From NCBI GenBank assembly GCA_031273105.1, contig JAISSN010000165.1, positions 1 to 34,286 of the forward strand: 34,286 nt of DNA. Reading direction: 5' to 3'. Every line of letters starts with the position of its first letter. Position 1 is the stretch's first letter. The notes under the pieces were generated by a model. It searched no databases and was not told where the DNA came from. It saw only the letters and a program-made list of their open reading frames with translations. The position numbers and the translations under genes are program-made. Shown in pieces: positions 1 to 17,919 of the stretch. The DNA comes from Holophagales bacterium. Its GTDB lineage: Bacteria; Acidobacteriota; Holophagae; Holophagales; Holophagaceae.

Positions 1-1
1 C

Positions 2-106
2 TTGGAAGATCAACTGTTTCACGGTCTCAGAGACCTGGAAAACCATCCCGAAATCACCAAATCCATTTCATCCTGGCCTTGGATAATTAATGCAATTTGT
101 AATTAG
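2..106 (+). CDS. C-terminal end of an unidentified protein (partial, truncated by window start)
   Basis: Open frame from base 2 to TAG at 104-106: LEDQLFHGLRDLENHPEITKSISSWPWIINAICN*. Short; the other two frames also stay open for a similar length. Confidence 0.3.
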   Translation: MEDQLFHGLRDLENHPEITKSISSWPWIINAICN

Positions 107-460
107 AATTGGAATCAAAATTAAACCGCTCTAGCTATCAAAATTAAATCCACTTTTTTCTGAAGTGTTTATATTTTTATAGCCAACGCGCTCAAAAAAG
201 TTGCTGGGCAAAAATTACCGAATTGAAAAAAAAAAAAATAGCCATAATAAACATTTGAGGGGGCGCGTCTGATGCTTATTCACTCAAGGTACCGCATTGG
301 CGAGTGTTCTGAGGGGGTTTGTACTCTTTGTCCATGCGTCCCCTCTGTTTTTTTTATCGCAATCGGTTTTGGGAGCGCGCGAAAACGCTCCAAACTCCGT
401 AAACACTATCGTTTCCCCCAACCGAGGTTTAAATTCCTCGCTTTCAACACAGGAGCCTGT

Positions 461-9117: not shown

Positions 9118-9278
9118 TGCGTTTCAAAGTTTTTTTCGCTTTTTGTTTTTTACCTGACTGCGCATTTTGTTTTTGGAAGAGACAACCGGAGCAATTCGAT
9201 TTCGAGAAAGCCAGACGCGCTACAGGTAGGATTTGGTTGCAAATCCCGCCATAAGCGTCGGTAGAGAAACTTGCCATA

Positions 9279-9446
9279 ATTCCAATTCTAAATAGAAATT
9301 GCTTTAATTTCTATTTAGAATTGGAATGCGCGACACGGATGTCGCGCCGAAATGCGTAGCATTTCTAGAGGCAAGGCGAGACCACGCTCTCGCCGCAGCC
9401 GACTACTTCAAAATTGCAGGACGCAATTTTGAAGTAGAAATGGAAT
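9279..9446. repeat. Multi-hairpin intergenic element with imperfect terminal inverted repeats
   Basis: Ends ATTCCAATTCTA / TAGAAATGGAAT (11 of 12 complementary). Internal perfect inverted repeats: 9279-9300/9306-9327 (22 bp), 9328-9334/9341-9347, 9349-9355/9359-9365, 9375-9381/9388-9394, 9403-9417/9423-9437 (15 bp). Confidence 0.85.
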
Positions 9447-9677
9447 AAGACGTATTTTTTGCCTTAGCATTTTGGGTTTTTGTAAAATTGGGTAAAGGCA
9501 AGCTGCCCTCGACGCAAATTCGCCTTAGCCACCCATAAATATCATAAACTCAGCATTTTTTGATTGCGAAATATTTTAAAACCTGTAGAATTGTTGTGAC
9601 AGGGTTATTCGCTGTTTACAGTTTTTTGAAAAACCAGATAAACTCTAGTCAGGTCGGCTTCCTGGAGGCGTTCTCAC

Positions 9678-17719: not shown

Positions 17720-17841
17720 AACAAAACCTCACGAATGTGAGCTAATTGCAAAACCTCCAGCTTTGCCGGAAACTCGGACGCCAGACCCGCATTTTTCAGA
17801 AATTGCGCACTGGCTTGCGATGTTTCCAGGAGGTTTTGCGA

Positions 17842-17919
17842 TTACCTCTTGTATTTATTTATGTCTTCGGCCAGTGCCTGAACCCAGGCTTCAAGAGACA
17901 CCTTAATACGTAAAAACAT
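17842..17919 (-). CDS. Putative 25-aa small ORF in the motA leader
   Basis: GGAGTGTTT-ATG; MFLRIKVSLEAWVQALAEDINKYKR*. The frame stays open without a start for more than 40 codons beyond the TAA. Confidence 0.4.
   Translation of the reverse strand: MFLRIKVSLEAWVQALAEDINKYKR

Follow-up and report, generated by a model that had tools for sequence, protein, structure and literature searches.

Non-autonomous DNA transposons (MITEs) related to IS630 are a known kind of element, exemplified by RUP of Streptococcus pneumoniae, the MITE of IS630-Spn1 (PMC2229807). RUP resembles the HU-fliL family described here in being small (~100-200 bp), non-coding, intergenic and present in high copy number (PMC2229807), in having terminal repeats in common with a resident IS630 element and in its ability to insert in other mobile DNA, but it differs, as judged from its description, in using TA targets where the HU-fliL family uses TNA. 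The Correia elements or NEMIS of Neisseria likewise come in two size classes set apart by an internal segment and have strong stem-loops and terminal inverted repeats of 24 nt (PMC2229807, PMC10969869), but they carry TA at their termini and by description are a different element. Within the IS630 family proper, ISY100 duplicates TA (PMC2170065) while ISHsp2, a reported exception, duplicates TTAA (PMC3606827); the partner transposases found here match the transpos_IS630 and DDE_3 models of this family, yet the duplicated target is TNA. It is this target that is the unusual part of the present case. Target duplications of 3 bp with the sequence TNA or TWA are made by IS5-type elements of the IS1031 group and by PIF/Harbinger elements, but these use a transposase of another family, whereas the partners here are of IS630 type.

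The HU-fliL element and its genomic copies

The window, that is the whole stretch of 34,286 nucleotides analysed, is contig 102 of a Holophagales genome of 2.07 Mb in 193 contigs, which was searched for copies. In the gap flanked by HU (PF00216, 8761-9069) and fliL (PF03748, 9678-10286) a sequence-only reading had described five consecutive inverted repeats over 168 bp. All five are present, as a perfect 22-bp left hairpin with a 5-nt loop (9279-9327), three internal hairpins supported by the repeat check and the fold (9328-9347, 9349-9365 and 9375-9394, plus strand) and a subterminal 15-bp hairpin at the right end (9403-9437, plus strand). The first of the internal hairpins, GCGCGACA/TGTCGCGC, has 8 bp, one pair more than had been counted, while the other two have the 7 bp described and the 15-bp hairpin is likewise as described. 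The outer ends are indeed inverted repeats, 79 % complementary over 24 nt (9279-9302 against 9423-9446). As RNA the stretch folds at -83.1 kcal/mol compared with a mean of -38.2 for shuffled sequences (z -12.4), and as DNA with a z of -13.2 relative to shuffled sequences, a stability far beyond chance.

The span of 168 bp needed a small correction, in that the outermost A (9279) and T (9446) belong to a target duplication and the element proper covers 166 bp (9280-9445, plus strand). Strong matches were obtained at ~40 places in its own genome, so the stretch is not single-copy, and these loci either have exactly the same ends or are truncated where a contig ends. The best copies are 95-98 % identical over their full length and keep the same two endpoints unless a contig end intervenes; repeats break assemblies, hence copies that stop at contig ends are expected. 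Being short and non-coding, with many copies and common ends, the element has the properties of a MITE, and the hairpins make up its palindromic architecture. Its left end (9280-9326, plus strand) is a terminal inverted repeat with an inverted copy, forming a hairpin of 21-22 bp, and its right terminal inverted repeat is TTCCATTTCT (9436-9445, minus strand), or TTCCAATTCT in many copies; the right end carries a further hairpin. We identified size classes of ~166 bp, which includes the HU-fliL copy, and 196-200 bp, with odd members of 154, 289 and 357 bp. A 30-bp loss between two GCAAGG repeats distinguishes the 166-bp class from the 196-bp one, and comparison with loci L021, L023, L024 and L026 places the scar of the missing segment at GCAAGG (9371-9376, plus strand). 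A simple ORF test placed 25 of 26 copies between genes. Searches of phage records, plasmid records and viral contigs gave no match, and the earlier impression that the family was not a recognised one holds for the resources searched, none of which returned a named family. The HU-fliL element is one of ~40 copies of a MITE family that is new and belongs to an IS630-type subgroup.

Several other repeats were noted. A second dispersed palindromic repeat of ~110 bp lies in the window at 17739-17848 (GAGCTAATTGCAAAACCTC...GAGGTTTTGCGATTACCTC) and has ~40 genomic copies; a copy of the main MITE has inserted into one member of this repeat. A related MITE family with the ends TTCCATTTCTACATAG... and ...TTTTGAAGTAGAAATGGAA occurs in L224, L225 and L227 (contigs C22, C72 and C171), the C72 copy having TTA on both sides. 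CRISPR-like repeats, CCCCACGCACGTGGGGGTGTTT, adjoin a MITE on contig C72 (L225, upstream of 1839, minus strand). A third repeat family, TATAGCATTTCCGGTTCAAAACCGC...GCGGTTTTGA(A/G)CCGGAAA, is found in L037, L091, L092, L097 and L219 and is often nested with the MITE.

Target duplication and empty sites

Alignment of the flanks of the copies revealed T-N-A on either side, in the HU-fliL copy as TAA at 9277-9279 and again at 9446-9448. Both ends could be read in 26 copies, and in 22 of these the two triplets have the same middle base (9.1 expected), a number reached by none of 200,000 shuffles, and inverted-complement agreement is 0. Because the middle bases agree directly and never as inverted complements, TNA is a direct 3-bp duplication that lies outside the inverted repeat; the target-site duplication that had been proposed as a check was therefore found. 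The 2-bp TA duplication that is taken to define IS630 elements is replaced here by TNA, including TGA and TCA, which hold no TA, and the TGA copies (L005, L015, L029) mean that TA cannot be the target.

These duplications also bear on the proposal that the stretch is REP-like, a REP/REPIN-type element moved by RAYT or by an IS200/IS605-like HUH transposase acting on hairpins. Although the family is palindromic, dispersed and intergenic with hairpins at both ends, HUH elements make no target duplication, which the clear TNA duplications contradict, and its ends are held in common with IS630 elements of the DDE type, making such an origin highly improbable.

The left end of the MITE also occurs alone elsewhere as a 47-bp palindrome. 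Standalone palindromes of 47-51 bp, each consisting of a MITE end joined to an inverted copy of itself, were seen in L090 (~1932-1978, contig C70), L218 (~1190-1238) and L219 (~2260-2309); the C70 palindrome has equal TTA flanks, while in L218 and L219 the flanks, of the TTA/TAA type, are inverted complements of each other. As the flanks are mostly unequal, clean transposition is not the origin of every copy.

To look for empty sites, 100 bp from either flank were joined so as to keep a single TNA, and the product was compared with the available genome stretches. The joined flanks of L012 align ungapped across the junction to uninterrupted paralogous places in L219 (91 %) and L225 (87 %), those of L011 give an ungapped match of 113 bp to L213 (76 %), and L005 sits within another dispersed repeat whose unfilled members are present in L004, L029, L032, L210 and L214. 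The joined flanks of these three copies, all of them other than the HU-fliL copy, match uninterrupted paralogous sequence, and real empty sites therefore exist. For the HU-fliL site no empty allele was obtained at base resolution and the comparison with congeners is one of gap length and absence of the element. The HU-fliL gap of congener G002 measures 342 bp, as against 608 bp in the window, and lacks the element; in congener G001 the HU and FliL frames lie at most ~400 bp apart. Genome-wide, two congeners have hairpin-level matches of 28-38 nt only and a third has none. The HU-fliL copy is very probably a lineage-specific insertion into an intergenic gap.

Partner transposons and their relatives

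Contig ends also carry solitary occurrences of the end sequence TTCCAATTCTAAATAGA or of a near variant, and here we identified parts of two IS630-type transposons, IS-A and IS-B. Left ends of IS-A are on C44 and C110 and right ends on C102 (window 1-114), C130 and C161; that the two kinds of end form one element is inferred, since the assembly lacks its middle part. In the window the right end (1-114, plus strand) is cut by the contig end and comprises the transposase C-terminus (2-103, plus strand) and the terminal inverted repeat TTCCAATTCT (105-114, minus strand), which is followed by TCA. At least three copies of this right end are present in the genome. Partner transposases were compared with the Pfam DDE_3 and NCBIfam transpos_IS630 models (NCBIfam IS630 cut-off 100). 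The C-terminal 65 residues of IS-A match both models; this fragment of only 65 aa gives 5.6e-9, below cut-off, while a relative (L142) scores 116.7 with the NCBIfam model. The IS-B transposase C-terminus, in a 130-residue version at one end of C19, matches DDE_3 at 3.6e-24, over the cut-off, and IS630 at 2.1e-24, so that the partner is assigned to the DDE_3/IS630 transposases. At the other end of C19 the IS-B end TTCCAATTCTAAATAGAAATTGCTTTA lies directly behind the transposase C-terminus and is identical over 27 bp to the start of the MITE (the first 27 bp of 9280-9326), whereas the IS-A ends share 10-17 terminal bp with it. The MITE thus has ends in common with two autonomous-type elements of the same genome, both incomplete. 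IS-A was the first candidate parent and was dropped for IS-B as the closer to the MITE end; judged by ends only, the 27-bp identity makes IS-B the likelier parent. Neither element is complete in the assembly and the second end of IS-B was not found in it; with both broken at contig ends, the active transposase stays putative.

The proposal that the stretch is a non-autonomous mobile element is thus supported by the multiple copies, by their terminal inverted repeats and target duplications, by the empty sites and by an insertion sequence with the same terminal 27 bp. On the observed copies, boundaries, duplications, empty sites of other copies and ends common with IS630-type elements, we hold it to be very probable that the HU-fliL element is a MITE which a DDE transposase of IS630 type mobilises in trans. 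This enzyme would recognise the ends TTCCAATTCTAAATAGA..., excise the MITE, probably by cut-and-paste chemistry, and make a 3-nt staggered insertion into a T-N-A target, so that the MITE comes to be flanked by TNA on either side.

The same target rule holds for relatives of the IS-A transposase fragment, which were taken from genomes of many phyla. An apparent inverted-complement TNA at four end pairs, from the search with the C-terminal fragment, rested on ends picked for long inverted repeats, a biased choice, and was set aside for a flank-blind test, in which ends were chosen by the inner repeat alone (T[AT]C[CT]...) and flanks were left out of the choice. The 33 elements with detectable ends, which are of the TTCC/TACC type, have T-N-A on both sides in every case (33/33), and the triplets are identical in 28 (shuffled mean 9.9), as TTA (12), TAA (9), TGA (5) or TCA (2). 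In many relatives a helix-turn-helix part at the N-terminus and a DDE part at the C-terminus are encoded by two reading frames that overlap, and IS630 elements with this layout are thought to use frameshifting (PMC3606827). No description of a TNA duplication for IS630 was found in the literature searched, and it may be recorded in ISfinder. A broad IS630-type subgroup in many bacterial phyla may join its ends with a 3-nt stagger at TNA in place of the 2-nt stagger at TA that is taken as defining, with the MITE family as its non-autonomous offshoot and a target rule that has gone undescribed; this is quite possible, although we would stop short of calling it probable.

Host function and wider meaning

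A structured ncRNA had also been suggested. A conserved ncRNA gene could account for the z-score of -12.4, but Rfam returned sub-threshold chance matches only, none above gathering score; internal lengths and deletions differ among copies, and the congeners lack the element save for the short hairpin pieces that occur in two. Base pairing is retained in 97 % of cells, yet both sides have changed in only 3 of 61 pairs, in one sequence each. Such changes are compatible with maintenance of the palindrome and are weak evidence for RNA function. The element has no terminator-like site, and together with the weak covariation and the Rfam result this leaves a conserved ncRNA unsupported and very hard to credit. 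No evidence was found for the nucleoid-protein or recombinase site that had also been suggested.

A MITE by origin could nevertheless now serve as a host RNA-processing or regulatory module, for instance by having read-through transcripts cut by RNase III or by supplying promoters, as described for Correia elements. The very stable fold, the intergenic placement of nearly all copies, the location of the three compensatory pairs in the left hairpin and a weak promoter-like match on each strand within that hairpin would fit such a role. The promoter matches however reach 9/12 and mirror each other because the DNA is palindromic, covariation is barely above controls, the terminator-like site is lacking and the position is not conserved in the congener examined. 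We find this role unlikely and regard the element as selfish, though it may incidentally affect read-through RNA; the MITE would then be without host function.

The MITE family accounts for a striking repeat and for many of the contig breaks in this genome. The TA dinucleotide is treated as a signature of IS630/Tc1/mariner transposition. If a large TNA subgroup is real, the stagger has changed within this family, which is testable in vitro, and annotators should seek TNA when delimiting IS630-type elements and their MITEs.
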